Part shown: positions 21,883 through 40,181 of the stretch, piece by piece
Position numbering within the stretch: the stretch's first letter is position 1
How the letters are laid out: each line of letters starts with the position of its first letter
Source: Mesorhizobium sp. LSHC420B00
GTDB taxonomy: Bacteria > Pseudomonadota > Alphaproteobacteria > Rhizobiales > Rhizobiaceae
Assembly: GCF_000503055.1 (NCBI RefSeq)
Contig: NZ_AYVY01000001.1
Coordinates: 297,592 to 361,591, forward strand
DNA length: 64,000 bases
Direction: 5' to 3'
The notes under the pieces: generated by a model
Told to the model about the DNA's origin: nothing
What the model saw: only the letters and a program-made list of their open reading frames with translations
The model's database searches: none
Program-made: the position numbers and the translations under genes

Positions 21883-22512
21883 CTATGCCAATTCCTCGGA
21901 ATGCCGGATATCGACGCCATACTCCGCGGCGGCATCGAGCATCGTGTGCCACAGGCTCCCGGCAAACGTCGCGAACACCAGGAGATTGAACACCGCCTGT
22001 CCATCCGGCCAGTCATTGCCGCGCCAGAGATTGATGCTGGTGTGATCGACCGATGTTGCGGCGGCGGTGCCGACCGGAAATGCCGCCGGGTGCAGGTCTA
22101 GTGAAGACAATTTGGCCAGCATCGAGCGCGCTTTTTCTCCCGAAACGCTGATCAGGACGCGCGCATGCGACTGGTCCGATAGCGAGGCGGATTGCGAGAA
22201 CGCCTGGCTCAGCGGTTCGATCGCGTGCTTGCCGGCATTGGACAGGACGAGGAACTGATCCGGTCCCGACCAGATCAGCGTAGCGTCGGGAACTCGGACC
22301 GCCTTGGGCGTTTCCGGTGCGGCAACGCCGAAACGGGCCTGGGCAGCTTTTGCCAGCTCCGCCGTTTTGCCGCGCCGCGCCATCACCTGGATCAGGTCGA
22401 AATTGCGGATTTCCGTCAGCCAAACGCCGGCCTCGGTGCCGCGCGCGCCATGGGCGCCGACGACGAGCGCGTGCTCCAGCGGACTGCGGGCAATCCAGGA
22501 AAACTCAGCCAC
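21883..22512 (-). CDS. mgdD: N-methylglutamate dehydrogenase subunit D (SoxG-like)
   Basis: About 209 residues, similar in size and character to the gamma subunit of heterotetrameric sarcosine oxidases (SoxG). In N-methylglutamate dehydrogenase this is MgdD, a small GcvT-like accessory subunit. I choose the GTG at 22512 because GGAGG sits eight bases before it; an ATG at 22527 is possible but has no ribosome site. The gene overlaps the end of mgdC by eight bases, which suggests translational coupling. It ends the mgs-gmaS-mgd operon just before a repeat element. Confidence 0.83.
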   Translation of the reverse strand: MAEFSWIARSPLEHALVVGAHGARGTEAGVWLTEIRNFDLIQVMARRGKTAELAKAAQARFGVAAPETPKAVRVPDATLIWSGPDQFLVLSNAGKHAIEPLSQAFSQSASLSDQSHARVLISVSGEKARSMLAKLSSLDLHPAAFPVGTAAATSVDHTSINLWRGNDWPDGQAVFNLLVFATFAGSLWHTMLDAAAEYGVDIRHSEELA

Positions 22513-25489
22513 GCTGGCGCCCTCCATCCGGATCGTAGAAGACCGGGCTGCACAGCTCGACATCGTAGTCTTCGCCGCGCAGCGGGTCATGCGTATGGAC
22601 GATCTCGCCGATGCGCTCGCGGCCGCATTCGACCAGGCCAAGCCCGATCCACTGGTCGAGCGTCGGCGAGAAGCAGACCGAGGTGACGTAGCCCTGGTCG
22701 TTGTCGGGACCGGGTGTCTTGTCCTTCGGAATGATATGCGCGCCGGAACGCAGGCGGCTTGCCTTATCCGTCGGCTTGATGCCGACCACGACCTGCCGGT
22801 CCGGGGCGACCAGCGCCTCGCGCCCGGCCATGACGCGGCCGATAAAATCCTTCTTGGTCGACATCATCTTGCCGAGGCCTAGGTCGGCGGCCGTCGTCGT
22901 GCCGTTCAGCTCCGGCCCGGCGACATGGCCCTTTTCGATGCGCATGACGCCGAGCGCCTCGGTGCCGTAGGGCGTAACGCCGAATGGCTTCCCGGCCAGC
23001 ATCAAATTGCGCACCAGCGCGTCGCCGTAACGGGCGGGAACCGAAATCTCGAACGCCATCTCACCGGAGAACGAGATGCGGAACAGCCGTGCCCTGGTGC
23101 CGCCGCGAAGCGATACCTCGCGCGCCCCCATGAACGGAAAACCTTCATTCGACAGATCCTCGGCCGGATCGACGATTTCCCGGAGCAGGTCCCGGGTCCT
23201 AGGTCCAGCGATCGAGAATTGCGCCCACTGGTCAGAGACGGAGGTGAGCTGGACGTCGAGCTCAGGAAATAGCACCTGCCGGCAGAATTCGAGATGCTGC
23301 ATCACCAGCCCGGCCTTGGCGGTGGTGGTGGTCAGGAAATAATGGTCCTCGGCCAGCCGCGAGGTGGTGCCGTCGTCATAGACGATGCCGTCCTCGCGCA
23401 GCATCAGCCCGTAGCGGGCTTTTCCCACGGCAAGACTGGAGAAGGTGTTGATGTAGACGCGGTCGAGGAAAGCGCCGGCGTCCGGGCCGTGCACGTCGAT
23501 CTTGCCGAGCGTCGAGACGTCGCAGAAGCCGACGCCGGAGCGCACCGCCTTGACCTCGCGCGTCACCGATTCCAGCCAGTCCTTTTCGCCGGCGCGCGGA
23601 TACCATTGCGCGCGCTTCCACAGGCCGGTGTCGACGAACACCGCGCCCTGTTCGGCTGCCCAGTGATGCGACGGCGTCAGCCTCGTCGCATGGAAGTTCT
23701 CGTCGCGATGATGGCCGGCGAAGGCGCCGATAGCGACCGGCACATAGGGCGGGCGGTAGATCGTCGTGCCGGTCTCGGGAATGGATTTGCCTGACAACGT
23801 AGCCATGATGGCGAGGCCGGCGACGTTCGAGGTCTTGCCCTGGTCGGTGGCCATGCCGAGCGTCGTATAGCGCTTCAGATGCTCGACCGATTCGAAACCC
23901 TCGCGCTGCGCCAGTTCGATGTCGGACGCCGTGACATCGTGCTGGTAGTCGACAAAGGCTTTGCCCTTGCCGGCGACATGCCAGAGCGACGTCAGCGAAA
24001 ACGCCTCATCGTCGGCGACCGGCGGCGTGCCGGCATTGCCGCTGCGCCCGGCACTCTGTGCTGCCGCCGCTCCTGCGGCAAAGCCCTGGCGCAGGCAGTC
24101 GCCCAGCCCGAAGGCGCCGTTGGCGGCGCCTGCGGCCATCATGCCCGGAGGCGCACCGTCCGGGACGAAGGCTGCGATGTCGTCCTGCCATTTCGGCCGG
24201 CCGCGATGGTAGGAGGTCAGCCCGACCGCCGGATTCCAGCCGCCGGAGACGGCAAGCCCGTCGGCTTCGACTTCCGCCCGTGCGCCGCCGGTCAGCGAGA
24301 TCGCGATTTTCCGGACGCCGGCCTTGCCGCCTTCGACCCCGTTGACCGAGCCGCTGAGCACCGGAAAGCCGGCCTTGGCGGCGAGCGCGCGATGTGCGGC
24401 GGAGACGTCCGGGCGCGCATCGACGACCGCCGCGATCTGCAATCCGGCGGCGAGCGCGGTCTCGACCGTGCGCCAGCCATCCGCATTGTTGGTGGACAGC
24501 GCGATCCTCTTTGCCGGCGCCGCCGCGTAGCGCGCGACATAGGTCCGCATCGCCGAAGCCATCATCACGCCGGGCGTGTCGTTGCCGGCAAACACGATCG
24601 GCCGCTCGATGGCGCCGGCGGCAACGACGCAGCGCCTAGCCACGATCCGCCATAGCCTTTGGCGCACTTGGTGCTCTGGCGGGGAGGGCAGGTGGTCATT
24701 GACCCGCTCGATCGCGCCATAGGTGCCGCCATCATAGACGCCGAACAATGTCGTGCGGTTCATGATGCGGATATCGGGGAGTGCTGCGAGTTCGGCCAGC
24801 GTGCGCGAAATCCATTCGGCCGCCGGCAGGCTGTCGATGGTGCCGCCGTCGGCAAGCAGACGGCCGCCGAACGCAAAATCTTCCTCGCACAGGATGACAC
24901 GGGCGCCGCTGCGCCCGGCCGCCAATGCCGCCGCGAGCCCGGCCGGGCCAGAGCCGGCGATCAGCACGTCGCAATGCGCCCACGCCTTGTCGTAATGGTC
25001 GGGATCGGCGACGCCGGCGGCGCGGCCGAGACCGGCGGCTCGGCGGATCGCCGGTTCGTAGACCGCTTCCCAGAATTTCGCCGGCCACATGAAGGTCTTG
25101 TAGTAGAAGCCGGCGACGAAGATCGGCGCAAACAGCTGGTTGACCGCCATCAGATCGTGGCGCAGCGACGGCCAGCGGTTCTGGCTGGCGGCCTCGAGCC
25201 CGTCGTAAAGTTCGGCCGTGGTCGCCTTGGTGTTCGGCTCGCGCCGCGCTCCGCTGCGCAGTTCGACCAGCGCGTTGGGCTCCTCCGACCCGGCGGTCAG
25301 GATGCCGCGCGGGCGATGGTATTTGAACGATCGGCCGATCAACTTGACGCCATTGGCAATCAGCGCCGAGGCCAGCGTGTCGCCTTGGAAGCCGGCAAAG
25401 CTCTTGCCGTCGAAGCGGAAGCTCAGCGGCGCGGCGCGATCGATGAGACCGCCGCTCTCCAGCCGGTGTGTCTGCGCAGGGCCAACCAT
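22505..25489 (-). CDS. mgdC: N-methylglutamate dehydrogenase large subunit (SoxA-like)
   Basis: A 994-residue alpha subunit of the heterotetrameric sarcosine oxidase family. Order of domains: an N-terminal ferredoxin-like Fer2_4 region (about 1-110), a nucleotide-binding region with the GSGPAGLAAA motif near residue 180, a second FAD/NAD domain to about 490, and a C-terminal GcvT folate-binding domain (about 600-994). It oxidatively demethylates N-methylglutamate to glutamate and places the methyl carbon on tetrahydrofolate. Its ATG overlaps the mgdB stop as ATGA. Sarcosine oxidase is the alternative by homology alone, but the adjacent gmaS and mgsABC genes argue for N-methylglutamate. Confidence 0.9.
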   Translation of the reverse strand: MVGPAQTHRLESGGLIDRAAPLSFRFDGKSFAGFQGDTLASALIANGVKLIGRSFKYHRPRGILTAGSEEPNALVELRSGARREPNTKATTAELYDGLEAASQNRWPSLRHDLMAVNQLFAPIFVAGFYYKTFMWPAKFWEAVYEPAIRRAAGLGRAAGVADPDHYDKAWAHCDVLIAGSGPAGLAAALAAGRSGARVILCEEDFAFGGRLLADGGTIDSLPAAEWISRTLAELAALPDIRIMNRTTLFGVYDGGTYGAIERVNDHLPSPPEHQVRQRLWRIVARRCVVAAGAIERPIVFAGNDTPGVMMASAMRTYVARYAAAPAKRIALSTNNADGWRTVETALAAGLQIAAVVDARPDVSAAHRALAAKAGFPVLSGSVNGVEGGKAGVRKIAISLTGGARAEVEADGLAVSGGWNPAVGLTSYHRGRPKWQDDIAAFVPDGAPPGMMAAGAANGAFGLGDCLRQGFAAGAAAAQSAGRSGNAGTPPVADDEAFSLTSLWHVAGKGKAFVDYQHDVTASDIELAQREGFESVEHLKRYTTLGMATDQGKTSNVAGLAIMATLSGKSIPETGTTIYRPPYVPVAIGAFAGHHRDENFHATRLTPSHHWAAEQGAVFVDTGLWKRAQWYPRAGEKDWLESVTREVKAVRSGVGFCDVSTLGKIDVHGPDAGAFLDRVYINTFSSLAVGKARYGLMLREDGIVYDDGTTSRLAEDHYFLTTTTAKAGLVMQHLEFCRQVLFPELDVQLTSVSDQWAQFSIAGPRTRDLLREIVDPAEDLSNEGFPFMGAREVSLRGGTRARLFRISFSGEMAFEISVPARYGDALVRNLMLAGKPFGVTPYGTEALGVMRIEKGHVAGPELNGTTTAADLGLGKMMSTKKDFIGRVMAGREALVAPDRQVVVGIKPTDKASRLRSGAHIIPKDKTPGPDNDQGYVTSVCFSPTLDQWIGLGLVECGRERIGEIVHTHDPLRGEDYDVELCSPVFYDPDGGRQRG

Positions 25490-25764
25490 CAGGCGCCCAC
25501 CTTGGCGGCGCCAACGCCCGCAGCCGGCTCGACCGACGAAATCTCGTGCGTCAGCGTGTTGCGGGCGACCTTCAGCCAGGCCCGGCAGCCGCCGCCATGA
25601 TACCAGTATTCGCTCATCGGCCCGGCGACATTGTCGCGCAGATAGACATAGTCGAAGACCTCGTCTTCGGAGGAGCCGGCCGCCGGACGCACCGGCCTGG
25701 CGTCGCCCAGATAGGTGAACTCGCCGAGTTCGCGTTCGCCGCAGAAGGGACAGACAATGCGCAT
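25489..25764 (-). CDS. mgdB: N-methylglutamate dehydrogenase subunit B (SoxD-like)
   Basis: A 91-residue protein with the SoxD zinc-site pattern: Cys5-x2-Cys8 at the N terminus and His56/Cys60 in YWYHGGGC. SoxD is the small delta subunit of sarcosine oxidase complexes; here it is MgdB. It lies between mgdA (17 bases upstream) and mgdC (ATGA overlap), as in known mgdABCD operons. Confidence 0.9.
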   Translation of the reverse strand: MRIVCPFCGERELGEFTYLGDARPVRPAAGSSEDEVFDYVYLRDNVAGPMSEYWYHGGGCRAWLKVARNTLTHEISSVEPAAGVGAAKVGA

Positions 25765-25781
25765 GCTTCTTCAGCCAGCCT

Positions 25782-27035
25782 TCAATGCAGGTTCGGTTGG
25801 GCGCCCTGGCCCTTTTCGTCGATCATCGCACCTCGCCGGAAGCGGTCGAGACGAAAGCGAGTAGCCTCCTTGTGCGGCTCGTCGCGCGCCAGCAGATGGG
25901 CAAAGACCAGGCCGGAGCCGGGCGTCGCCTTGAAGCCGCCATAGCACCAGCCGGCGTTGAGATAGAGCCCGTCGACCGGTGTTTTGTCGATGATCGGCGA
26001 GCCGTCCATCGACATGTCCATGATGCCGCCCCACTGACGCAGAAGCCGTATCCGGCCGATCATCGGCATCAGCGCCATGCCGCCTTCGCAGACGTCTTCC
26101 ATGACAGGCAGATTGCCGCGCTGGGCGTAGGAATTGTAGCCGTCTATATCGCCGCCGAAGACCAGGCCGCCCTTGTCGGACTGGCTGACGTAGAAATGCC
26201 CGGCGCCGAACGTCATGACATTGGGGATCAGCGGCTTGATCGCCTCGGAGACGAAGGCCTGCAGCACATGGCTTTCGATCGGCAGCCGCATGCCGGCCAT
26301 CGCCGCGACGCGCGACGAGGAGCCGGCGACCGCCATGCCGACCTTGGCCGCGCCGATCCTGCCGCGGCTCGTCTCGACGCCGGTCACCTTGCCGCTGCCG
26401 TCGCGGATAAAGCCGGTCACTTCGCAATTCTGGATGATGTCGACGCCGAGCGCGCTCGCCGCATGCGCGTAGCCCCAGACCACGGCATCGTGTCGTGCCG
26501 TGCCGCCGCGTCGCTGCAAGAGGCCGCCCTGCACCGGGAAACGTGCGTTGTCGAAGTTCAGGAAGGGCATCATCTTCCTGACCGCCGTCAGATCGAGCAG
26601 TTCGGCATCGATGCCGTTGATGCGCATGGTGTTGCCGCGCCGTGCGTAGGCGTCGCGCTGCGCGTCGGAATGGTAGAGATTGATGACGCCGCGCTGGCTG
26701 ACCATGGTGTTGTAGTTGAGGTCCTGCTCCATCCGTTCCCACAGCTTCATCGACAGCTCGTAGAAGCCGGTATTGCCGGGCAGCCCGTAATTGGAGCGGA
26801 TGATGGTGGTGTTGCGGCCGGCATTGCCGGAGCCGATCCAGCCTTTTTCCAGCACCGCGACATTCCTGATGCCGTACTCGCTGGCGAGGAACCATGCCGT
26901 CGCCAGTCCATGGCCGCCGCCGCCGATAATCACCACGTCGTAGTGGCTCTTCGGGCTGGCGTCGCGCCAGGTACGCTGCCAGTTCTTATGGCCGGAAAAT
27001 GCCGCCCGGGCGAGGGAGAAGATCGAGTATTTCAT
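25782..27035 (-). CDS. mgdA: N-methylglutamate dehydrogenase subunit A (SoxB-like flavoprotein)
   Basis: A 417-residue FAD-dependent oxidoreductase of the DAO/sarcosine oxidase beta family. The dinucleotide motif VIIGGGGHGLATAW begins near residue 35, and the histidine after the glycine run is typical of SoxB proteins that hold FMN covalently elsewhere. With MgdBCD it forms the enzyme that oxidises N-methylglutamate. It follows gmaS by 36 bases on the same strand, in the usual pathway order. Confidence 0.9.
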   Translation of the reverse strand: MKYSIFSLARAAFSGHKNWQRTWRDASPKSHYDVVIIGGGGHGLATAWFLASEYGIRNVAVLEKGWIGSGNAGRNTTIIRSNYGLPGNTGFYELSMKLWERMEQDLNYNTMVSQRGVINLYHSDAQRDAYARRGNTMRINGIDAELLDLTAVRKMMPFLNFDNARFPVQGGLLQRRGGTARHDAVVWGYAHAASALGVDIIQNCEVTGFIRDGSGKVTGVETSRGRIGAAKVGMAVAGSSSRVAAMAGMRLPIESHVLQAFVSEAIKPLIPNVMTFGAGHFYVSQSDKGGLVFGGDIDGYNSYAQRGNLPVMEDVCEGGMALMPMIGRIRLLRQWGGIMDMSMDGSPIIDKTPVDGLYLNAGWCYGGFKATPGSGLVFAHLLARDEPHKEATRFRLDRFRRGAMIDEKGQGAQPNLH

Positions 27036-27071: not shown

Positions 27072-28379
27072 TCAGATGTCGAGCGTGTGGTCGCGCTCCC
27101 ACTGGGTGAAGTGGGAAGCATAGGAATTCCATTCCTGTTGCTTGAGCTTTAGATAGGCCGACGAGAATTCCTCACCCAGCGCCGCCTTGAGCGATTTGTC
27201 GTTGTCGAACTCGCGCAATGCGTCGAGCAGGTTGAGCGGCAGCTTCGGCGCCCCTTCGACCGTATGGCCGAACTGGTACATGTCGATGTCGTAGCGCCGG
27301 CCGGGATCGGCCTTCGAGCGGACACCGTCGAGCCCGGCGGCGATGATCACGGCCTGCAGCAGATAGGGGTTTGCCGCGCCGTCGGGCAGGCGCAGCTCGA
27401 AGCGGCCGGGGCCGGGCACGCGCACCATGTGGGTGCGGTTGTTGCCGGTCCAGGTCACGGTGTTCGGCGCCCAGGTGGCGCCGGAGATGGTGCGCGGTGC
27501 GTTGATGCGCTTGTAGGAATTGACCGTCGGGTTGGTGATGGCGGCAAGCGCGGAAGCATGTTTCATGATGCCGCCGAGGAAATTCCTGCCCTTGGCCGAC
27601 AGGCCGAGTTCCATCGCATTATCGGCAAAGACATTGGTCTTGCCGTCCCTGTCCCAAACCGAGATGTGGGCATGGCAGCCATTGCCGGTCAGGCCCTGGA
27701 ACGGCTTCGGCATGAAGGTCGCGCGCAGCCCGTGCTTTTCGGCAACGGATTTCACCATGAATTTGAAGAAGGAATGCTTGTCGGCGGTCGCCAGAGCATC
27801 GTCGAAGGCCCAGTTCATCTCGAACTGGCCGTTGGCGTCCTCATGGTCGTTCTGGTAGGCGCCCCAGCCGAGCGCCAGCATATGGTCGCAGATCTCGGCG
27901 ATGACGTCGTAGCGGCGCATCACCGCCTGCTGGTCGTAGCAGGGCTTCGACGCCGTGTCGTATTCGTCGGAAATCGTCTTGCCGTCCGGCGAGATCAGGA
28001 AGAACTCGGCCTCGACGCCGGTCTTGATGTGCATGCCGTCGCCGGCGGCCTCGGCGATCAGCCGCTTCAGCGTGTTGCGCGGCGCCTGCTCGACCGATTT
28101 GTCGTCCATCATGCAGTTGGCGGCGACCCAGGCGACTTCGGGCTTCCACGGCAACTGGATCACCGAATCCGGATCCGGCACGGCCAGCATGTCGGGATGC
28201 GCCGGCGTCAGGTCGAGCCAGGTAGCAAAGCCGGCAAAGCCGGCGCCGTCCCGCTGCATGTCGGCGATCGCCTGCGACGGCACCAGCTTGGCACGCTGCC
28301 CGCCGAACAGGTCGGTGTAGGATATCATGAAATATTTGACGCCCTTCTCCTTGGCGAAGGCGGCGAGATCGTTCCCCAT
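27072..28379 (-). CDS. gmaS: Gamma-glutamylmethylamide synthetase
   Basis: A 435-residue member of the glutamine synthetase superfamily, in the group once called type III/GlnT. It uses ATP to ligate methylamine to the gamma-carboxyl of glutamate, giving gamma-glutamylmethylamide. Visible glutamine-synthetase elements include the N-terminal beta-grasp region, GVEAEFFL, NGCHAHIS and the catalytic NRTHMVRVPG loop. GAGGAATTATA precedes the ATG. Location between mgsC and mgdA is the diagnostic context: the same fold alone could mean glutamine synthetase III, but this operon makes GmaS far more likely. Confidence 0.93.
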   Translation of the reverse strand: MGNDLAAFAKEKGVKYFMISYTDLFGGQRAKLVPSQAIADMQRDGAGFAGFATWLDLTPAHPDMLAVPDPDSVIQLPWKPEVAWVAANCMMDDKSVEQAPRNTLKRLIAEAAGDGMHIKTGVEAEFFLISPDGKTISDEYDTASKPCYDQQAVMRRYDVIAEICDHMLALGWGAYQNDHEDANGQFEMNWAFDDALATADKHSFFKFMVKSVAEKHGLRATFMPKPFQGLTGNGCHAHISVWDRDGKTNVFADNAMELGLSAKGRNFLGGIMKHASALAAITNPTVNSYKRINAPRTISGATWAPNTVTWTGNNRTHMVRVPGPGRFELRLPDGAANPYLLQAVIIAAGLDGVRSKADPGRRYDIDMYQFGHTVEGAPKLPLNLLDALREFDNDKSLKAALGEEFSSAYLKLKQQEWNSYASHFTQWERDHTLDI

Positions 28380-28413: not shown

Positions 28414-29742
28414 TTAGAAGCCGTTCTTGCCCGGTATCCAGTTGGTGCCGGTCAGCGGCACGCCGGCCATGGCGGCGGCTTCGATCGTCAAGGCGACAAG
28501 ATCCTCGGGCTCGAGATTGTGCAGGCTGTTCTTGCCGCAAGCGCGGGCGATTGTCTGAGCCTCAAGTGTCATTACCTTAAGATAGTTCGCCAGCCGTCGT
28601 CCGGCCGCAATCGGATCGACCCGTTTCATTAGCTCGGGATCCTGCGTGGTGATGCCGGCCGGGTCGCGTCCCTCATGCCAGTCGTCATAGGCGCCGGCGG
28701 TGGTGCCGAGCTCGTTGTATTCCGCTTCCCAGCGCGGGTCATTGTCGCCGAGCGCGACAAGCGCTGCCGTGCCGATCGACACCGCGTCGACGCCGAGCGC
28801 CAGCGCCTTGGCGACGTCGGCGCCGTTGCGTATGCCGCCGGAGACGATCAGCTGCACCTTGCGGTGCATGCCGAGATCCTGCAGCGCCTGCACAGCCGGC
28901 CTGATGCAGGCAAGCGTCGGCTGGCCGACATTTTCGATGAACACTTCCTGGGTTGCCGCCGTGCCGCCCTGCATGCCGTCGACGACGACGACATCGGCGC
29001 CCGATTTCACGGCAAGCGCGGTATCATAATAGGGCCGCGCGCCGCCGACCTTGACGTAGATCGGCTTTTCCCAATCGGTGATTTCGCGCAGTTCGAGGAT
29101 CTTGATCTCGAGGTCGTCCGGCCCGGTCCAGTCGGGGTGGCGCGAGGCCGAGCGCTGGTCGATGCCTTTCGGCAGCGTGCGCATTTCGGCAACGCGGTCG
29201 GAAATCTTCTGGCCGAGCAGCATGCCGCCGCCCCCGGGCTTGGCGCCCTGGCCGACGACCACCTCGATCGCATCGGCGCGGCGCAGATCGCGGGGGTTCA
29301 TGCCGTAGCGCGACGGCAGGTACTGGTAAACCAGCGTCTTCGAATGGCCGCGCTCTTCCTCGGTCATGCCGCCGTCGCCGGTGGTGGTCGAGGTGCCGGA
29401 CAGCGTCGCCCCGCGGCCGAGCGCTTCCTTGGCCGGACCGGACAGCGAGCCGAAGCTCATGCCAGCAATGGTGATCGGGATCTTCAGCTCGATCGGTTTC
29501 TTCGCATAGCGCGAACCGAGCACGACGCTGGTGTCGCAGCGCTCGCGATAGCCTTCGAGCGGATAGCGCGAGATCGAAGCGCCGAGGAACAGAAGGTCGT
29601 CGAAATGCGGAAGCTTGCGCTTGGCGCCGGCGCCCCTGATATCATAGATGCCGGTCGCCGCGGCGCGGCGGATCTCGGAAAGCGTATAGTCGTCGAAGGT
29701 CGCGGATTTGCGCGGCGTCGTCGGCGGGTTGCGATAGGTCAT
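28414..29742 (-). CDS. mgsC: N-methylglutamate synthase FMN-binding subunit (glutamate synthase-like)
   Basis: A 442-residue FMN-binding protein corresponding to the central/FMN domain of glutamate synthase large subunit. Recognisable parts include the SFGSLSGPAKEA segment, GQGAKPGGGGML, a phosphate-binding SGGIRNGADVAKALALGVD region and a cysteine-containing C-terminal part. With MgsA and MgsB it transfers methylamine from gamma-glutamylmethylamide to make N-methylglutamate. It begins six bases after mgsB. Confidence 0.91.
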   Translation of the reverse strand: MTYRNPPTTPRKSATFDDYTLSEIRRAAATGIYDIRGAGAKRKLPHFDDLLFLGASISRYPLEGYRERCDTSVVLGSRYAKKPIELKIPITIAGMSFGSLSGPAKEALGRGATLSGTSTTTGDGGMTEEERGHSKTLVYQYLPSRYGMNPRDLRRADAIEVVVGQGAKPGGGGMLLGQKISDRVAEMRTLPKGIDQRSASRHPDWTGPDDLEIKILELREITDWEKPIYVKVGGARPYYDTALAVKSGADVVVVDGMQGGTAATQEVFIENVGQPTLACIRPAVQALQDLGMHRKVQLIVSGGIRNGADVAKALALGVDAVSIGTAALVALGDNDPRWEAEYNELGTTAGAYDDWHEGRDPAGITTQDPELMKRVDPIAAGRRLANYLKVMTLEAQTIARACGKNSLHNLEPEDLVALTIEAAAMAGVPLTGTNWIPGKNGF

Positions 29743-29748
29743 GCTGCC

Positions 29749-30483
29749 TCAATACGCATCGGCGTTGTCGATATTGAAATTGTAAAGCGTGCGCGCCGAA
29801 CCGTAGCGCTTGAACTCCGCCGCCTTGACGCCGGTCACGCCGGCACGGTCGAGCAGGTTTTGCAGCAATTCCAGGTGTTCGGGCCGCATCTCCTTGGCGA
29901 TGCAGTCGGCGCCGAGGCTTTCGACCTTGCCGCGCACGAAGAGCCGCGCCTCGTAGATGGAATCGCCGAGCGCATCGCCGGCATCGCCCAGCACCACGAG
30001 GTTGCCGGATTGCGCCATGAAGGCCGACATGTGGCCGATATTGCCGTGGACGACGATGTCGATGCCTTTCATCGAGATTCCGCAGCGCGACGACGCATTG
30101 CCTTCGATGACCAGCAGCCCGCCCCGGCCGGTGGCGCCGGCATACTGGCTGGCATCGCCTTTGACGACGATCTGGCCGGACATCATGTTTTCGCCAACGC
30201 CGGGCCCGGCCGAACCATGCACGGTGATGGTGCCGCCGTCGTTCATGCCGCCGCAATAATAGCCGACGCTGCCGCGGACATCGATGGCGACCGGCTGGTC
30301 GACGCCGACGGCGACCGAATGGCTGCCGCGCGGATGCAGTACCTCCCAGGCGGTCTCGTTCGAACCGGGAGCCAGATCGTGCAGCGCCTGGTTGAGCTCG
30401 CGCAGCGACATTTCGGCCAGGTCGAAGACCCTCGATGCCTGGCCCGGCTCGCGCGCGGCCTTGGAGAGGTTAATTGCCGGCAT
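29749..30483 (-). CDS. mgsB: N-methylglutamate synthase GXGXG subunit
   Basis: About 244 residues matching the C-terminal GXGXG right-handed beta-helix domain of glutamate synthase, as a separate polypeptide. Regular glycine-rich repeats such as GDASQYAGATGRGG and GNIGHMSAFMAQSG show the helix turns. In the enzyme complex this domain is structural, between the amidotransferase and FMN parts. I take ATG 30483 (MPAINLS) as the start; the open frame extends to 30540 but that would overlap mgsA heavily. Confidence 0.9.
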   Translation of the reverse strand: MPAINLSKAAREPGQASRVFDLAEMSLRELNQALHDLAPGSNETAWEVLHPRGSHSVAVGVDQPVAIDVRGSVGYYCGGMNDGGTITVHGSAGPGVGENMMSGQIVVKGDASQYAGATGRGGLLVIEGNASSRCGISMKGIDIVVHGNIGHMSAFMAQSGNLVVLGDAGDALGDSIYEARLFVRGKVESLGADCIAKEMRPEHLELLQNLLDRAGVTGVKAAEFKRYGSARTLYNFNIDNADAY

Positions 30484-30487
30484 AAGA

Positions 30488-31381
30488 TCAATGCTCCCAG
30501 AAATAGACGGTTGCGGGCTCGGGTTCCCAGACCTTCGCATTGTCTATGCCGGGCAGTTTGGTCAGCGCACGATATTCCGAGCCGAAGGCGACATACTGGT
30601 CGGTTTCGGCCATCACGGCGGGCTTGCAGGCGATCGGATCGCGCACCACGCCGAAGCCATTCTTGGTGCCGACGACGAAGGTGAAGAAGCCGTCGAGGTC
30701 GCTCAGCGTGCCTTCCAGCGCCTCGCCGAGGTTCTTGCCATGCGCCATCTGCGAGGAGAGATAGGCGGCCGCGACTTCGGTGTCGTTCTCGGTCTCGAAT
30801 GTCATGCCTTCGCGGATCAGCTCGCGGCGGACATTGTTGTGGTTGGACAGCGAGCCATTATGCACCAGGCACTGGTCGGCGCCGGTCGAGAACGGATGCG
30901 CGCCCATCGTCGTCACCGCCGATTCGGTCGCCATGCGGGTATGGCCGATGCCGTGCGTGCCGGTCATCTCGCGGACGCCGAACCGATCGACGACCGCTTC
31001 CGGCAAGCCGACTTCCTTGTAGATCTCGACGACGTCGCCGGCGCCCATGATGCGGATGTCGGGGCGCAGCGCCTGGATCGCCTCGCGCGCTTCGTCGATC
31101 TTGGCAGGCGTCGTCCTGACCACCGCATGCGTCGACTTCGCAGCCAAGCTCACCGGCGCGCCGATCGCCTTGGCGAGGTCGGCGTCGAGGCCGCGGAAAT
31201 CGCGCTCCGGCTTGGCCGACTGGATGGTGATCTTGGCTTCATTGGAAGACGCGCCATAGATGGCGATGCCGGCGCTGTCGGGACCGCGATCGCTGAGCGA
31301 GATCAGCATCTCCGACAGCATCGCGCCAAGCTGGGGCTCAAGCGACTTGTCCTTCAAAAACAGTCCGACGATTCCGCACAT
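30488..31381 (-). CDS. mgsA: N-methylglutamate synthase amidotransferase subunit
   Basis: A 297-residue class II (Ntn) glutamine amidotransferase. The start at 31381 puts Cys2 in MCGIVGLF exactly where the N-terminal nucleophile must be after methionine removal; an upstream ATG at 31438 would bury it. In MgsABC this subunit releases methylamine from gamma-glutamylmethylamide and channels it to the synthase site. It is preceded by a 95-base gap with an AT-rich motif, so it may have its own promoter besides read-through from the upstream genes. Confidence 0.91.
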   Translation of the reverse strand: MCGIVGLFLKDKSLEPQLGAMLSEMLISLSDRGPDSAGIAIYGASSNEAKITIQSAKPERDFRGLDADLAKAIGAPVSLAAKSTHAVVRTTPAKIDEAREAIQALRPDIRIMGAGDVVEIYKEVGLPEAVVDRFGVREMTGTHGIGHTRMATESAVTTMGAHPFSTGADQCLVHNGSLSNHNNVRRELIREGMTFETENDTEVAAAYLSSQMAHGKNLGEALEGTLSDLDGFFTFVVGTKNGFGVVRDPIACKPAVMAETDQYVAFGSEYRALTKLPGIDNAKVWEPEPATVYFWEH

Positions 31382-31444
31382 GTCAGGCTCCGAGATTTGT
31401 TCCCTTGGAGATGTATCGAATGAGTCCCGGGAATTCAATTAGTA

Positions 31445-31476: not shown

Positions 31477-31797
31477 TCAGGCGCTGCCGGCCGCACTATC
31501 GCTGCGCTTGCCGCCATTGTGAACCCATTTGGCATGGCGGACGCGGGCGATCTTGTAGGCATCCAGGATCGACAGGGCATAGATCAGGAAGCCGCCGGCA
31601 TGCCGGCCGATGAAGCTGGCATCCGGCGGCGCGATCTTGGCGGTGACCCAGGCCAGGATCACCATGAAAAACAGGAACTGCAGGCCGCGCACCGGCACAC
31701 CTAGCACGACATGCCCGCTCGCCGGCAAGACGATCGCGGCGCCGAGAACCAGATACGGGTTCGGTGGCGCGGGGGAGGTGGTGCTCTGCCTGCTCAT
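31477..31797 (-). CDS. Small membrane protein of unknown function, in the amine operon
   Basis: 106 residues with about three hydrophobic segments (roughly 15-35, 37-55, 70-88) and a basic C-terminal tail. I do not recognise the family. The pattern of a short hydrophobic start, a GHVVLG turn and a DAYK motif after the last segment recalls small TM2-like proteins. Its ATG overlaps the stop of the 226-residue gene upstream as ATGA, so the two are translationally coupled and probably function together. It ends 95 bases before mgsA. Confidence 0.7.
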   Translation of the reverse strand: MSRQSTTSPAPPNPYLVLGAAIVLPASGHVVLGVPVRGLQFLFFMVILAWVTAKIAPPDASFIGRHAGGFLIYALSILDAYKIARVRHAKWVHNGGKRSDSAAGSA

Positions 31798-32474
31798 GCC
31801 GCTTGCCGTTCGCTTTGATTGATGGCATCGCGCAGTGCCGACGCCGACGACAGCAGCCTCTCGACCAGCGCCGGATCGAGCCTGACCGTGCCGAATTCGG
31901 CTTGCCGGAACACGCCATAGCGCGCCCGCTCGGCCTCGGCCAGCAGCCAGACGATGCGCACGCCGTTCGGCGTGATCAGCAATTCCTTGGCGCGCCCCTC
32001 GACAAAGACATCGAGGTGGTCGGTGATAATGGCGTCAGGGAAGCGCACGCCCTTGCGGTCGCTCCGCAGCACCGCTTCGGCTGGAAATTCCGCCGCCTTC
32101 GGCAGTGTATGGTCGAGATGATCGAAATTGGAAAAAGTCGTCGGCGATCCTGGCCGCATCATCATGTCGAAAGTGCCTGGCACCGCGACTTTTTCGTTGA
32201 TCGAAACGCTCAGCCAGCGCGCTGGCAGCTTCCTGATCGCCAGCGTGTCAACGATGGTCCGTACCTGCACCCGCCGGCCGTTCCACGAGCCGGCGAAGGT
32301 GACGACGCCGGCGGTGCCGTCCGAGACGTTGGCCACGTCGGGAATGATTTCGCGAAGTCCCGCTTCGTCGGCGGCAAGTGCGGTCGAAGCCTTGTTGCGG
32401 TTGGCGCGCGCAAACCAGGTCATGTGGAGGACGAGAGCCAGGGCAACCGCCCCGGCGAGCAATGCTGAGATCAC
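31794..32474 (-). CDS. Membrane-anchored protein of unknown function, in the amine operon
   Basis: 226 residues: a single N-terminal hydrophobic segment (about 3-22), then a soluble domain with mixed strands and helices. No conserved enzymatic motif is seen. The soluble part could face either side; positive residues after the segment favour a cytoplasmic location. It lies 51 bases after the APC permease and is fused by an ATGA overlap to the 106-residue membrane protein, placing both between transport and methylamine enzymes. A role in sensing or modulating uptake is a guess. Confidence 0.65.
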   Translation of the reverse strand: MISALLAGAVALALVLHMTWFARANRNKASTALAADEAGLREIIPDVANVSDGTAGVVTFAGSWNGRRVQVRTIVDTLAIRKLPARWLSVSINEKVAVPGTFDMMMRPGSPTTFSNFDHLDHTLPKAAEFPAEAVLRSDRKGVRFPDAIITDHLDVFVEGRAKELLITPNGVRIVWLLAEAERARYGVFRQAEFGTVRLDPALVERLLSSASALRDAINQSERQAA

Positions 32475-32525: not shown

Positions 32526-33926
32526 TCAGTACCCCTGTGGTTTCGGCCACGGCATGGTGAACTGGGCACCGCGGCGCACGAATCTGTAGCGGTAGAAATG
32601 GAACCATAGCGAGATCAGGAAGTAGAAGGCGACCATGGCGATCAGCTGCGAGCCGAAGCCGAGGAAGATCGCAAAGAAGGTGACCACGCAAAGGCAGAAC
32701 AGCACGATCGCCGGCAGCGGATGGAAGGGATGGGTGTAGCCGCGGCGGATCGAGCCGAGCGGCCACTTCTTCCTGAACATGATGATGTTGATGCTCATGA
32801 AGGTGTATTGCAGCACGCCCGACAGGATCGAGAAGGTGATCGCCTGGTTGAGGTCGGCGATGAAGGCAAAGGCCAGCGCGATCGGCAGCAGGAACAGGAT
32901 CGAGCGATAGGGCGTGCGGTATTTCGGATGCACCGCCGAGAACCAGGTCGGCAGATAGCGGTCGCGGCCAAGCGAGAACCAGGCGCGCGCGGCGTCGTTG
33001 ATGCAGCCATTGGCCGAAGCAAGTGCAGCAAGCAGCGTCGCGATGAACAACAGGTTCTCCAGCAGCGGGCTGCCGGTCAGCTTGCCTGCGTCCCAGAGCG
33101 GATAATAGGTGATGCCGAGATATTCCCAGGGCATCAGCGAGGCGCAGACATACCAGGTCATGGCGGCGGCGATCAAAAGCGTAATCATGCCGGCCATCGT
33201 GCCGTAAGGCAGCGAGCGCGCCGGCGAGCGAACTTCCTCGGCGGCCTGCGTGGTGCCCTCGATGCCGAGATAGTACCAGATGCCGAACTGGAAGGCGGCG
33301 ATGACGCCGATCCAGCCATAGGGCAGGGCGTTGCCGGGGGTGACCAGCTCGTTCAGCTTGAGCACGGCGCCTTGCGTCCACGGGCTGACCGAGAAGAACA
33401 GGATGACGATCGAGACATAGGCGATGGCGGTGATGACGAAGTTTACGTTGAGCGTCATCAGCACGCCGCGATAGTTCAGCCATGCCAGCACGACGATGGT
33501 CGCGGCGATGAAGGAATTGTGGTTGAGGCCTTCGACGCCGGCCTTGGCGACGATCGTGTCGCCGAGCAGGATAGCGTCCGACACTTCGAGCATGGTGTAG
33601 GCAAAGACCAGGAACAGCGCGACGTTGAAGGCCATCAGCGGCCCGACAATGTGCTTTGCCTGCGCATATTGGCCGCCGGCGGCGGCAACCGTTGAGGTGA
33701 CTTCGGAATCGATCATGGCGACCGAGGTGTAGAGCAGGCCGACGATCCAGCAGACGATCAGCGCCGCCAGCGCGCCGCCCTTGTCCGCCGCGAAATTCCA
33801 GCCGGTGAATTCTCCGACCAGAACAATGCCGACGCCGAGTGCCCAGACATGGGCGGGGCCGAGCACCCTGAGCAGCGAAACCCTGTCGCCTTGCACTTGC
33901 ACTGCCGGTTCAAGCGTGACCGTCAT
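32526..33926 (-). CDS. APC-family amine/amino acid permease with small-protein partners
   Basis: 466 residues with about 12 transmembrane segments of the APC superfamily. It should import a cation-like amino compound by secondary transport. It is the fourth gene of a compact cassette: three small membrane proteins of 95, 125 and 53 residues precede it with gaps of only 11 to 16 bases. Given its place at the head of the methylamine operon, methylamine, dimethylamine or a pathway intermediate such as glutamate is the likely substrate. That is inference from location; APC sequences alone do not give specificity. Confidence 0.87.
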   Translation of the reverse strand: MTVTLEPAVQVQGDRVSLLRVLGPAHVWALGVGIVLVGEFTGWNFAADKGGALAALIVCWIVGLLYTSVAMIDSEVTSTVAAAGGQYAQAKHIVGPLMAFNVALFLVFAYTMLEVSDAILLGDTIVAKAGVEGLNHNSFIAATIVVLAWLNYRGVLMTLNVNFVITAIAYVSIVILFFSVSPWTQGAVLKLNELVTPGNALPYGWIGVIAAFQFGIWYYLGIEGTTQAAEEVRSPARSLPYGTMAGMITLLIAAAMTWYVCASLMPWEYLGITYYPLWDAGKLTGSPLLENLLFIATLLAALASANGCINDAARAWFSLGRDRYLPTWFSAVHPKYRTPYRSILFLLPIALAFAFIADLNQAITFSILSGVLQYTFMSINIIMFRKKWPLGSIRRGYTHPFHPLPAIVLFCLCVVTFFAIFLGFGSQLIAMVAFYFLISLWFHFYRYRFVRRGAQFTMPWPKPQGY

Positions 33927-33941
33927 CGTTCAATCCCCTAC

Positions 33942-34103
33942 TCAGATCCGGTGTTTTTCGGACACGGCTTCAAGTTCGCCTTCCCTGGACGAGGTCAGCA
34001 CGTCTTCGGAAAATGTCGTGTCGATCTTGAACCAGTCGTAGAGCATCCACAGCGCGAGCACGATCGAGATGCCCCAGCATGCGTAAGATAGTGCCACCCA
34101 CAT
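33942..34103 (-). CDS. 53-residue single-pass membrane protein
   Basis: A short frame from ATG (complement of 34101-34103) to TGA. Residues about 3-23 are one transmembrane segment rich in Trp (MWVALSYACWGISIVLALWM), followed by a charged tail ending SEKHRI. It fills the gap between the 125-residue gene (16 bases upstream) and the APC permease (15 bases downstream) and so is very likely translated. Size and context suggest an accessory subunit of the transporter. No family recognised. Confidence 0.7.
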   Translation of the reverse strand: MWVALSYACWGISIVLALWMLYDWFKIDTTFSEDVLTSSREGELEAVSEKHRI

Positions 34104-34119
34104 GACGATGCTTCCCGGT

Positions 34120-34497
34120 TTATTTGTCGTCGAATTTTTCGTTGATGACGTCGCGGTATTCGCGGTCCGATGCGCGGAACAGAAAGATGAAATAGCCGAT
34201 CAGCACTGCGGCCATGATGATCAGCGTCGGCCAGTCGATGATGTAGTGGAACCGGTTCTGGATGATGTCGTGCGCGGTTTCCGGCGTGTAGCCGAGCTTT
34301 TCCCAGATCGAGGCCATGGTCGGGTTCTGGCCGAGCGCTTCCCACGTCTTGGCGTCGAGCGCGTCGATGGATTTTGCCGCCCCTGCCAGCCCCAGTTTCA
34401 GCGGCAGCCACAGCGCGACAAAAATCGCGACCACGACGACGGCGATATCGAAAACCTGTCCGGCCTTGCTCTGTTCGGGCGGTGTGTAGCGGGCCAT
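34120..34497 (-). CDS. 125-residue membrane protein of the APC permease cassette
   Basis: The start MARYTPPEQ (34497) lies 11 bases after the preceding stop; the longer frame upstream overlaps that gene and is not protein-like. Two hydrophobic segments (about 17-37 and 88-107) enclose a polar loop that begins ALDAKTWEALGQ, followed by a charged C-terminal tail. No family recognised. As the middle member of three small membrane proteins before an APC permease, it is probably a transporter accessory subunit. Confidence 0.75.
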   Translation of the reverse strand: MARYTPPEQSKAGQVFDIAVVVVAIFVALWLPLKLGLAGAAKSIDALDAKTWEALGQNPTMASIWEKLGYTPETAHDIIQNRFHYIIDWPTLIIMAAVLIGYFIFLFRASDREYRDVINEKFDDK

Positions 34498-34508
34498 GCG
34501 TCTCCCCC

Positions 34509-34796
34509 TCAGGACTTGCGGTTGCGGTAAGCGTCGGCATTCTTGATGTCGAGGCCGTAGATGAAGTCCTTGTCTTCCTTGTAGTGGTTGACCATCGCCA
34601 GGATGGCGGCCGTGTTGAAGATCAGCACCGCGGCGGCAGCGACCGCGACGACTAGCTTGATGCCTGCGTCGGGGATGTACGGCCATGTCATGAAGAGGAC
34701 GAAGAGGATCGTCGCCCACAGACAGACGATTAGGAGCACCGATCCACGAAGGTCGGAACGGTACAGGGCTTCAATGCGCTGCTGCATGTCGGACAT
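34509..34796 (-). CDS. 95-residue membrane protein, first gene of the APC cassette
   Basis: The start MSDMQQRIE (34796) has GGAGGGG about five bases before it; an in-frame ATG at 34823 lacks one. Two transmembrane segments at about 18-40 and 47-70 are followed by a soluble tail with NHYKEDKDFIYG. No family recognised. It is the promoter-proximal gene of the minus-strand amine operon and diverges from dmmD. Confidence 0.75.
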   Translation of the reverse strand: MSDMQQRIEALYRSDLRGSVLLIVCLWATILFVLFMTWPYIPDAGIKLVVAVAAAAVLIFNTAAILAMVNHYKEDKDFIYGLDIKNADAYRNRKS

Positions 34797-34927: not shown

Positions 34928-34941
34928 TGAAATTATTTGCT
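34928..34941. promoter_or_regulatory. Candidate shared operator half-site upstream of dmmD
   Basis: TGAAATTATTTGCT, 104 bases before the dmmD start, shares its first ten bases with the tdm site. The second half does not match the palindrome, so this is the weakest of the series. Confidence 0.25.
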
Positions 34942-35044
34942 TGCGGGTATTGCAGGCTCTCGGCGTTTGCGATCAATATTCGGGCAACGCTCCCGCCAGG
35001 GAGCAGGGGAAAGCAAGAAGTTTTTTCGAACGGAGGACCAGCGG

Positions 35045-36178
35045 ATGACGGCATCCTGGAGATTTTCGGCCCTTGCGGACCGCCATCGCGCGCTCGGCTC
35101 GAAGCTCGAAGACTGGAGCGGCATGGGCACCGCGTGGACCTACGACAAGGACGCCGACGAAGAGTATATCGCCATCCGCACCAAGGCTGGCCTGATGGAC
35201 GTGTCCGGCTTGAAGAAGGTCCACATCACCGGGCCGCACGCCTCGCACCTGATCGACCTGGCGACGACGCGCGACGTCGAAAAGATCTATCCCGGCAAGT
35301 CGGCCTATGCCTGCATGCTGAACGAGGCCGGCAAGTTCACCGACGACTGCATCCTCTACCGCACCGGCCCGAATTCCTGGATGGTGGTGCATGGCTCGGG
35401 CACCGGCCATGAAGAGCTGCAGCGCGCTTCGGTCGGTCGTGACGTGTCGCTGCGCTTCGATGACAATCTGCACGACCTTTCGCTGCAAGGCCCGACCGCC
35501 GTCGACTATCTGGCAAAGCATGTGCCGGGCATTCGCGACCTCAACTATTTCCATCACATGCAGACGCAGCTGTTCGGCTTGCCGGTGATGATCTCGCGCA
35601 CTGGCTACACCGGCGAGCGCGGCTACGAGATCTTCTGCCGTGGCCAGGACGCCGGCACGATCTGGGACAGGATCCTCGACGAGGGCAAGAGCGCCGGCAT
35701 CATCCCGTGCCGCTTCACCACGCTCGACATGCTGCGCGTCGAGAGCTACCTGCTGTTTTACCCCTACGACAATTCGCAGAAATACCCGTTCGAGAACGAA
35801 GGCCCCGGCGACACGCTGTGGGAGCTCGGCCTCGATTTCACCGTCAGCCCCGGCAAGACAGGCTTTCGCGGCGCCGAGGAGCATTATCGCCTCAAGGGCA
35901 AGGAGCGCTTCAAGATCTTCGGCGTGCTGCTCGAAGGCAAGGAGCCGGCCGACGAGGGCGCGCCAGTCTATCGCGACGGCAAAAAAGTCGGCGTGGTGAC
36001 CTGCGCCATGTATTCGCCGCTGGTCAAAAAATCGATGGGCATCGCCCGGCTCGACGTCGACTGCGCGGTACAAGGCACCAGGCTCGAGATCCGCAACAAG
36101 AGCGGCGCCATCAGCGCAACCGCCGAGCCGCTTCCGTTCGACGATCCGAAGAAGACCAAGCGCACGGCGAAAGGCTGA
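35045..36178 (+). CDS. dmmD: Dimethylamine pathway GcvT-like folate protein
   Basis: A 377-residue aminomethyltransferase-family (GcvT) protein. It should bind tetrahydrofolate and capture formaldehyde released in the demethylation of dimethylamine. ATG 35045 is chosen because GGAGG lies eight bases upstream; the frame runs further back without support. The gene order here, GcvT then a Cys4 protein, a reductase and a DUF3445 protein, matches the dmmDABC order described for marine Roseobacters. By homology alone it could be a glycine cleavage T-protein, but no gcvH or gcvP is nearby. Confidence 0.87.
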   Translation: MTASWRFSALADRHRALGSKLEDWSGMGTAWTYDKDADEEYIAIRTKAGLMDVSGLKKVHITGPHASHLIDLATTRDVEKIYPGKSAYACMLNEAGKFTDDCILYRTGPNSWMVVHGSGTGHEELQRASVGRDVSLRFDDNLHDLSLQGPTAVDYLAKHVPGIRDLNYFHHMQTQLFGLPVMISRTGYTGERGYEIFCRGQDAGTIWDRILDEGKSAGIIPCRFTTLDMLRVESYLLFYPYDNSQKYPFENEGPGDTLWELGLDFTVSPGKTGFRGAEEHYRLKGKERFKIFGVLLEGKEPADEGAPVYRDGKKVGVVTCAMYSPLVKKSMGIARLDVDCAVQGTRLEIRNKSGAISATAEPLPFDDPKKTKRTAKG

Positions 36179-39464: not shown

Positions 39465-40181
39465 TCACCCCGCGCTCTGCGGGTAGCAAATGATCGACAA
39501 ATAGCGCATCGGCAGAACGGTCAGCACTTCCGGTCCGTGCGGTGCGTCGGCGTCGAAGAATAGGCTGTCGCCGGGCTTCATCGGGTAGAGATTGCTGCCG
39601 TGCCGGTAAACCACTTCGCCTTCGAGCATATACAGGAACTCCATGCCTTCGTGCTGGAAGGTCGGAAACACGTCGGAATCTTCGGTCAGCGTGATCAGAT
39701 AGGGTTCGACGACGACGCCGCTGGTGTTGGAGCCGATATGGCCGAGCAGATTGTACTGGTGGCCGGCGCGCGTGCCGCGGCGCTCGACGTCAAGGCCTTC
39801 CCCGGCCTTGACAAAGACGGCGCTGCGCTCTTCCTCGAAGCGGCGGAAGAATGCGGTGACGGGAACGCCGAGTGCCCGCGACAGCGCCTGCAACGTGGTC
39901 AGCGACGGCGAGGTGATGCCGTTCTCGATCTTCGACAGCATGCCAAGCGAAATGTCGGTGGCGGCCGCCAGATCGGCGACGGTGATGCCGAGCTTCTTGC
40001 GGAATGCCCGCACCTCGCGGCCGATCGCGACCTCCAGCACTTTTTCGCGAGTGTCGCGAATGGCGTGCGGGTTCTGGGTGAGCGGCGCGCGCATCTTGCG
40101 CGGATCGATTACAGCAACCGACGGCTTGGCTTTGCCCGCGGCGGCTGCCGCAGGCTTTAGACTGGTCGCTTTTTTCGCCAT
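39465..40181 (-). CDS. XRE-type regulator with C-terminal cupin domain
   Basis: 238 residues. A disordered Lys/Ala-rich N-terminal tail of about 45 residues precedes an XRE helix-turn-helix (about 55-110: VADLAAATDISLGMLSKIE) and a cupin (about 165-235). Proteins of this build are local repressors sensing small metabolites, often in amine or amino acid catabolism. It is divergent from tmm with 260 bases between, so regulation of tmm and perhaps the whole amine island is likely. The motif at 40400-40413 overlaps the presumed tmm transcription start. Confidence 0.87.
   Translation of the reverse strand: MAKKATSLKPAAAAAGKAKPSVAVIDPRKMRAPLTQNPHAIRDTREKVLEVAIGREVRAFRKKLGITVADLAAATDISLGMLSKIENGITSPSLTTLQALSRALGVPVTAFFRRFEEERSAVFVKAGEGLDVERRGTRAGHQYNLLGHIGSNTSGVVVEPYLITLTEDSDVFPTFQHEGMEFLYMLEGEVVYRHGSNLYPMKPGDSLFFDADAPHGPEVLTVLPMRYLSIICYPQSAG

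Follow-up and report, generated by a model that had tools for sequence, protein, structure and literature searches.

Can a bacterial carrier of the APC superfamily be assembled with small membrane proteins encoded beside it, and what would such a machine import? This question is raised by a stretch of 64,000 nucleotides from Mesorhizobium sp. LSHC420B00 (contig NZ_AYVY01000001.1, positions 297,592 to 361,591; hereafter the window, in whose own coordinates the features of this genome are given), where genes for three tiny membrane proteins and an APC permease stand at the head of a gene cluster for methylamine, a widespread carbon and nitrogen source. A preliminary description of this DNA had proposed a multi-subunit APC transporter for methylated amines. 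The co-conserved unit described here leaves this as the best reading, but the substrate narrows from methylated amines to methylamine, because trimethylamine N-oxide (TMAO) seems to be served by a second, TmoP-like permease encoded elsewhere in the window. Our joint reading, to which we assign a probability of roughly 55%, is that an APC carrier assembled with three small proteins (S1, S2 and S3) and served by two further proteins (S5 and S6) imports methylamine.

A cassette of six genes in fixed order

The cassette, by which we mean the permease together with S1, S2, S3, S5 and S6, lies on the minus strand. It starts with S1 (95 amino acids, 34509-34796), S2 (125 amino acids, 34120-34497), S3 (53 amino acids, 33942-34103) and the permease (466 amino acids, 32526-33926), whose open reading frames (ORFs) are separated by gaps of 11, 16 and 15 bases. 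It continues with S5 (226 amino acids, GTG start, 31794-32474) and ends with S6 (106 amino acids, 31477-31797), which overlaps S5 by 4 bases and was recognized by gene order and hydropathy. The first four ORFs had been reported in the preliminary description; their strand, positions and close spacing hold, and the four genes are real and adjacent, but the unit has six genes since S5 and S6 follow the permease.

The permease and the small genes are strictly paired. In a sample of 398 Pseudomonadota genomes, a profile search located S2 in 14, and these are exactly the genomes that hold the permease clade (E up to 1e-50). S2 is sparse, being present in 6 of the 385 genomes of the class sample. 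Among 72,556 plasmid records, 22 carry S2 and the same 22 carry permeases that are at least 60% identical; at E up to 1e-30 the only two other permeases were 27-28% identical proteins annotated as ethanolamine permeases. Because Fisher values ignore kinship, we place the weight on this 1:1 gene pairing and not on p-values.

Hidden Markov models of all six genes were run over 116 loci, each 5 kb or longer, excluding shorter loci and those fetched for other questions. A permease of the clade is present in 114 of them, and 111 of these 114 show the order S1-S2-S3-permease-S5-S6 on one strand; in the remaining three, which lack S5 and S6, the contig breaks off no more than 126 bases from the match to the permease. 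The two loci without a clade permease are L135, which is cut off after S2 by the start of its contig, and L137, which holds an orphan S2 relative. Most of the 114 loci (107) were reached via S2, namely 78 in the related-locus search, 17 in further genomes and 12 on plasmids, and some are closely related. The other seven, from another family of the same taxonomic order, were reached via Tdm and then permease searches in which the small genes were unused, and all seven contain the full six. We consider it probable that the six genes make up one transport machine.

It is unlikely, in our view, that the permease acts alone and that the small genes, merely co-transcribed with it, encode a membrane complex of their own, such as a sensor, a chaperone or a stress system. 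Such an arrangement would suit the orphan S2 relative in genome G090, which has no permease in the 19.5 kb read, and the UspA-like gene that in two loci separates S5 from the permease within the operon; moreover, the interaction between carrier and small proteins is one that we infer. Against it, the permease clade was never found without S2 in the 398 genomes or the plasmid records, nor without the other cassette genes in the 111 loci with room for them. In addition, the order is fixed across classes and S2 evolves more slowly than any cassette gene apart from the permease.

The orphan protein (L137:9929-10336) counts 135 amino acids, is 45% identical to S2 and has cytochrome-like genes, not other cassette genes, as its neighbors; G090 carries a full cassette as well. 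The UspA-like (universal stress) genes, recognized by eye, belong to two distant cassettes (L136:11545-11976 and L144:7758-8192), and in Paracoccus sp. MA an annotated universal stress protein (L158:1939-2352) is encoded about 320 bases before S1. Possibly, the UspA-like gene encodes a nucleotide-sensing regulator of the carrier.

The small proteins

Hydropathy predicts two membrane helices in S1, two in S2, flanking a loop of about 50 residues, one in S3, one in S5 at its N-terminus, and two in S6. Across Alpha-, Beta- and Gammaproteobacteria (15 aligned sequences per protein), the tails past the last membrane helix are conserved, with the majority forms HYxEDKxFIYGLDI in S1, SxxEYRxVIxEKF in S2 and LTSSREGExEA in S3. 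Median ratios of nonsynonymous to synonymous substitution rates (dN/dS) are 0.16 for S1, 0.075 for S2, 0.146 for S3, 0.039 for the permease, 0.20 for S5 and 0.24 for S6, based on 144 to 150 pairs per gene of modal-length orthologues from loci L037-L108, nearly all Mesorhizobium. These ratios indicate that purifying selection acts on all six cassette genes, with S2 as the slowest-evolving one apart from the permease. Since the ratios are well below 1 and orthologues of S1, S2 and S3 are present in all three classes, these are, judged by their sequences, real genes. The notion that such tiny ORFs are chance or annotation noise, to which the lack of annotation for S2 or S3 in some records might give rise, is already refuted by the same selection and conservation across classes.

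All five proteins score below the cut-offs of Pfam and NCBIfam; S1, S2 and S3 give weak matches alone, far under cut-off. That no known family had been recognized for the small proteins is thus borne out by both libraries. A known parallel is offered by the SSS symporters, in which a small two-helix partner is encoded beside a LeuT-fold carrier. No kinship of S1-S3 with these subunits was found in a profile-profile comparison with DUF4212 (hhalign probability 0.7-2.3%, versus 98.1% for the control), and neither DUF4212 nor DUF485 matched S1, S2 or S3 in Pfam at E up to 1. DUF485 was compared by Pfam scan only, as 61 genomes gave a single above-cut-off sequence, too few for a profile. In one alphaproteobacterial genus (g81; L138, L140, L141 and L142), S2 is enlarged to 159-162 amino acids, as about 30 extra residues lengthen the inter-helix loop.

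The permease and its first helix

The permease scores 109.6 and 95 bits against the Pfam AA_permease models PF00324 and PF13520 (cut-offs 24.6 and 27), and the matches cover most of the carrier. These two are its only Pfam matches at E up to 1, and no match to Amt/Mep (PF00909) is found at that level. The best NCBIfam model is that of the ethanolamine permease (TIGR00908, 168 bits), below its cut-off of 381.75 bits. In the PDB the best sequence match is GkApcT (6F34 and 5OQT, E about 1e-15), and the relatives include light chains of SLC7 carriers. SLC7 carriers with such light chains are heteromeric. GkApcT itself was crystallized with the single-helix protein MgtS, derived from the E. coli expression host, packing on the fifth transmembrane helix (PMC5803215). 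In view of these two cases, the earlier statement that an APC permease normally works by itself goes too far.

The first transmembrane helix (TM1) carries the motif VGE-x-x-GWN. In GkApcT it is in this helix that the carboxyl group of the substrate is bound, through the backbone amides of two residues, Thr43 and Gly44 (PMC5803215). In our alignment these two residues correspond to Val37 and Gly38 of the permease, while Gly42 falls opposite a gap and Ile45 is replaced by Glu39. E39, G42, W43 and N44 are invariant in all 105 aligned permeases, mostly from Mesorhizobium. In the two annotated ethanolamine permeases the position of E39 is taken by Asp or Glu, and GWN or GWS comes next. An acidic residue beside the carboxylate site would fit an amine substrate without a carboxylate; because the contacts in GkApcT are backbone amides, this side-chain change is suggestive only.

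In a few loci the permease gene itself is altered. It is in two pieces in L157 (a plasmid of Rhizobium sp. RCAM05350) and short at the N-terminus in L113 (a gammaproteobacterial metagenome-assembled genome), in both cases through an apparent frame change that reflects decay or a sequencing error. On pSymB of Sinorhizobium meliloti Ak57 (L034:9330-9640) S3 runs in frame into the permease, and S2 is without a stop codon. We did not count this fusion as proof of contact because it stems from a single-base difference in one strain, the S2 stop is also lost and three other Sinorhizobium records (K101, americanum and RAC02) keep the genes separate.

The predicted fold of S5

The AlphaFold2 model of S5, an N-terminal membrane helix followed by an alpha/beta domain, is confident (pLDDT 87.5). 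With an E-value limit of 0.001, Foldseek returns TtfA (6t84, E 7.4e-4) as its sole match, with low TM-scores of 0.34 and 0.42. A comparison with TtfA by VIA gives Z 11.1 and a root-mean-square deviation of 3.6 over 156 residues at 10% identity. The next VIA matches are chains of ribosome-translocon complexes (Z 8.6-10.0, with Z 10.0 for 7tm3_4), which we take to be CCDC47 or its relative; matches below these (Z under 7) were left unused. TtfA is described as an accessory to the mycolic-acid transporter MmpL3, and a section title of the TtfA paper states that the N terminus is required for interaction. This likeness of the predicted fold points to a carrier accessory, although a common fold shows no function.

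Genomic context and the substrate

Downstream of S6 the minus strand continues with mgsA, mgsB, mgsC, gmaS and mgd. The mgsA ORF (30488-31438, start tentative), for the glutaminase-like subunit of N-methylglutamate synthase, begins 38 bases past S6 and matches glutamine-amidotransferase-like models, every one below cut-off. Like mgsB (29749-30540) and mgsC (28414-29742), it is named by the mgsABC-gmaS order given in PMC4543880. The gene gmaS (27072-28379) encodes gamma-glutamylmethylamide synthetase of the type III glutamine synthetase family (TIGR03105, 673.5 bits, cut-off 469.6). The large subunits of N-methylglutamate dehydrogenase (mgd, 22505-27035) comprise a soxB-like (25782-27035) and a soxA-like (22505-25489) gene, with TIGR01373 and TIGR01372 above cut-off and the pathway name assigned by context. 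Further along the same strand lie tdm, for TMAO demethylase (19218-21515; NF053776, 1270.7 bits, cut-off 1100), and, adjoining it, a second and different APC permease that is TmoP-like (17107-18816; AA_permease_2). On the plus strand, a dmmD-like ORF starting from TTG (34937-36178, start tentative) is the first of the divergent dmm genes and marks the opposite edge of the transporter slot. The window holds the whole route from trimethylamine over TMAO and dimethylamine to methylamine (tmm, tdm, dmm, gmaS, mgs and mgd), along with two different APC permeases.

A 238-amino acid protein (39465-40181, minus strand) has a relative in L034 that is annotated as an XRE-family regulator, and relatives occur near 67 of the 73 close cassettes and 12 of the 41 divergent ones. 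As TmaR, the master regulator of Ruegeria, is of AraC type, the cassette clusters may have another regulator.

The close loci are the 73 whose permease is at least 90% identical. Within the fetched stretch, N-methylglutamate-pathway genes accompany 72 of these and some methylated-amine gene accompanies all 73; in the 41 divergent loci, several of which are stretches of only about 6 kb, the figures are 19 and 24. Across 101 relatives, gmaS (TIGR03105 over cut-off) is present in 53 of 54 S2-positive versus 17 of 47 S2-negative genomes, and within the genus in 51 of 51 versus 6 of 10, kinship being uncorrected. Among 24 cassette genomes, 22 have gmaS and 17 have Tdm over cut-off, while an eighteenth Tdm match (G833) has its start at the edge of a contig and scores slightly below the cut-off. 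The cassette therefore tracks methylamine assimilation better than TMAO use. The search for joint conservation near gmaS or dmm in other genomes, as suggested in the preliminary description, is thus positive with respect to co-occurrence, fixed order and context counts.

The finding would already be explained if the cassette permease were TmoP, the TMAO permease of Methylocella silvestris named in three papers. TmoP is said, in work by Zhu et al. from 2014, to be an APC-superfamily permease, and the presence of tdm in the window could suggest that the cassette permease is TmoP. This identity is largely refuted and we regard it as very improbable. Genome G902, presumably M. silvestris, has a tdm-tmm locus with an APC permease of 580 amino acids and, at a separate place, a full cassette divergent from mgsABC-gmaS-mgd. 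The TmoP-like permease of the window is 79% identical over 561 residues to the tdm-tmm permease of G902, whereas the cassette permease shares just 22% identity over 348 residues with the tdm-linked permease. The low identity, the other locus and the separate TmoP-like gene in the window speak against the cassette permease as TmoP. From this separate gene beside tdm, TMAO seems to have its own carrier in the window, which makes methylamine the likelier substrate of the cassette.

A second indication comes from genomes in which the slot is filled differently. We surveyed the gmaS neighborhoods of all 17 S2-negative, gmaS-positive relatives, four of which are pieces of only 5-11 kb delimited by contig ends. 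In four genomes of the same genus as the window (G016, G020, G051 and G052), the slot between dmmD and mgsA holds a single gene of 465-466 amino acids in the same orientation and no cassette genes. It encodes an Amt-family transporter (PF00909, 185-192 bits). These four cases may stem from one event. Another family provides an Amt-family gene near the mgs genes (G066); in G001, again of the same genus, dmmD adjoins mgsA with neither Amt nor cassette between them, and the piece of G006 that was viewed contains no Amt relative. Since Amt proteins are called methylammonium permeases (e.g., in PMC6338640), an exchange between cassette and Amt fits the same job. Strict exclusion between both is ruled out: Amt relatives occur within the cassette stretch in none of the 73 close loci and in 3 of the 41 divergent ones (L136, L140 and L142).

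That the same multi-component carrier moves another substrate (one of the amino-acid intermediates N-methylglutamate and gamma-glutamylmethylamide, or else dimethylamine, trimethylamine or another small amine) is possible, if doubtful. APC carriers mostly move amino acids, and certain cassettes lie beside tmm and tdm (L146 and L149) or dmm (L150 and L152) with no gmaS in the stretch; the three loci combining Amt and cassette also agree with another substrate. This is countered by the acidic TM1 residue, invariant beside the carboxylate site and shared with the two annotated ethanolamine permeases, by the presence of gmaS in 22 of 24 cassette genomes, and by Amt in the same slot of four sister genomes. 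Because of the gmaS count, the separate TmoP-like permease, the Amt gene in the same slot and the invariant TM1 glutamate, methylamine appears the likeliest substrate.

Discussion

In the mechanism we propose, the APC permease would act as the carrier and bring in methylamine (CH3NH3+), which would feed the N-methylglutamate pathway of the adjoining downstream genes. As small integral subunits, S1, S2 and S3 would pack on the carrier via their membrane helices, and their conserved, charged C-terminal tails would probably face the cytoplasm. S5, with its membrane-anchored domain of predicted TtfA-like fold, and S6 may be accessory factors that assist in assembling, stabilizing or regulating the carrier. 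A more far-reaching version, which we put forward tentatively, is that of an obligately hetero-oligomeric bacterial APC carrier, a dedicated methylamine importer with five undescribed partner families, one of them a TtfA/CCDC47-like factor acting on the carrier from the cytoplasm, which has spread between lineages and plasmids with methylotrophy clusters.

Several observations weigh against this import model. The multi-subunit organization rests on co-conservation, from which we infer both the complex and the uptake. Modeled by itself with AlphaFold2, S2 gives a poor prediction (pLDDT 66, pTM 0.29), the Foldseek TM-scores between S5 and TtfA are low, and the backbone nature of the GkApcT contacts weakens the argument from the TM1 side chain. 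Amt and the cassette are not simple substitutes, because both are present in the three divergent loci. As to the pathway context, the tested methylated-amine genes are found in none of the fetched stretch for 17 of the 41 divergent loci, and outside the genus gmaS is present in 2 of 3 S2-positive versus 11 of 37 S2-negative genomes, which is not significant (p = 0.24, Fisher, kinship ignored). Two cassette genomes are also at odds with a role in methylamine assimilation: G064 (100% complete), with S1 and S2 at a contig start and the remainder unseen, has neither gmaS nor Tdm over cut-off, and G171 (82% complete) has Tdm, but a search for gmaS at E up to 1e-120 finds nothing.

In the open-licence full-text literature, seen in excerpt, the matches listed for methylamine transporters, permeases linked to gmaS, TmoP and accessory subunits of APC carriers contain no description of the cassette, and those listed for methylamine transporters name no dedicated methylamine carrier for the N-methylglutamate pathway. 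In these excerpts the methylated-amine literature names transporters for TMAO (TmoXWV and TmoP) or ammonium (AmtB). For Methyloversatilis universalis FAM5, homologues of amino-acid permeases and of urea/ammonium transporters are mentioned there as responding to methylamine. The strict conservation of the module makes it an immediate candidate for a methylamine carrier, and one that is open to genetic testing. Should the small proteins prove to be subunits, it would also show that bacteria can make a multi-part machine out of the APC fold. Five protein families are new to the curated libraries searched, and some of their members have been left out of public annotation.

Comparison with known systems

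Several known systems share one element with the cassette and differ in another. TmoP, likewise an APC permease of methylated-amine loci, is 22% identical and belongs to another locus. Amt/Mep (PF00909) occupies the same slot in four sister genomes and perhaps does the same job, yet has no Pfam relation to the cassette permease. The SSS symporters with DUF4212 or DUF485 likewise have a small two-helix partner beside a LeuT-fold carrier, but S1-S3 lack profile similarity to DUF4212. TtfA has an N-terminal membrane helix and perhaps a fold similar to that predicted for S5, at about 10% identity and low Foldseek TM-scores, and serves MmpL3; the predicted S5 fold may also resemble the CCDC47-type chains (Z 10.0 for 7tm3_4).

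The closest known kinds are the Eat-type APC carriers and the APC carriers with a helix partner. Eat (TIGR00908) has in common with the cassette permease an acidic TM1 residue followed by GWN or GWS, and two annotated Eat proteins are 27-28% identical to it; no small companion gene is annotated within 400 bases around these two, the stretch that was viewed. In the SLC7-SLC3 system an APC carrier is joined by a partner that adds a membrane helix. The cassette proteins are without its large ectodomain: none of them matches a Pfam family of the glucosidase-like heavy-chain type at E up to 1. The complex of GkApcT and MgtS likewise adds a helix to an APC carrier, as proposed here for S1-S3, but whereas MgtS is derived from the expression host, the cassette partners are encoded beside their carrier in every locus with room for them.

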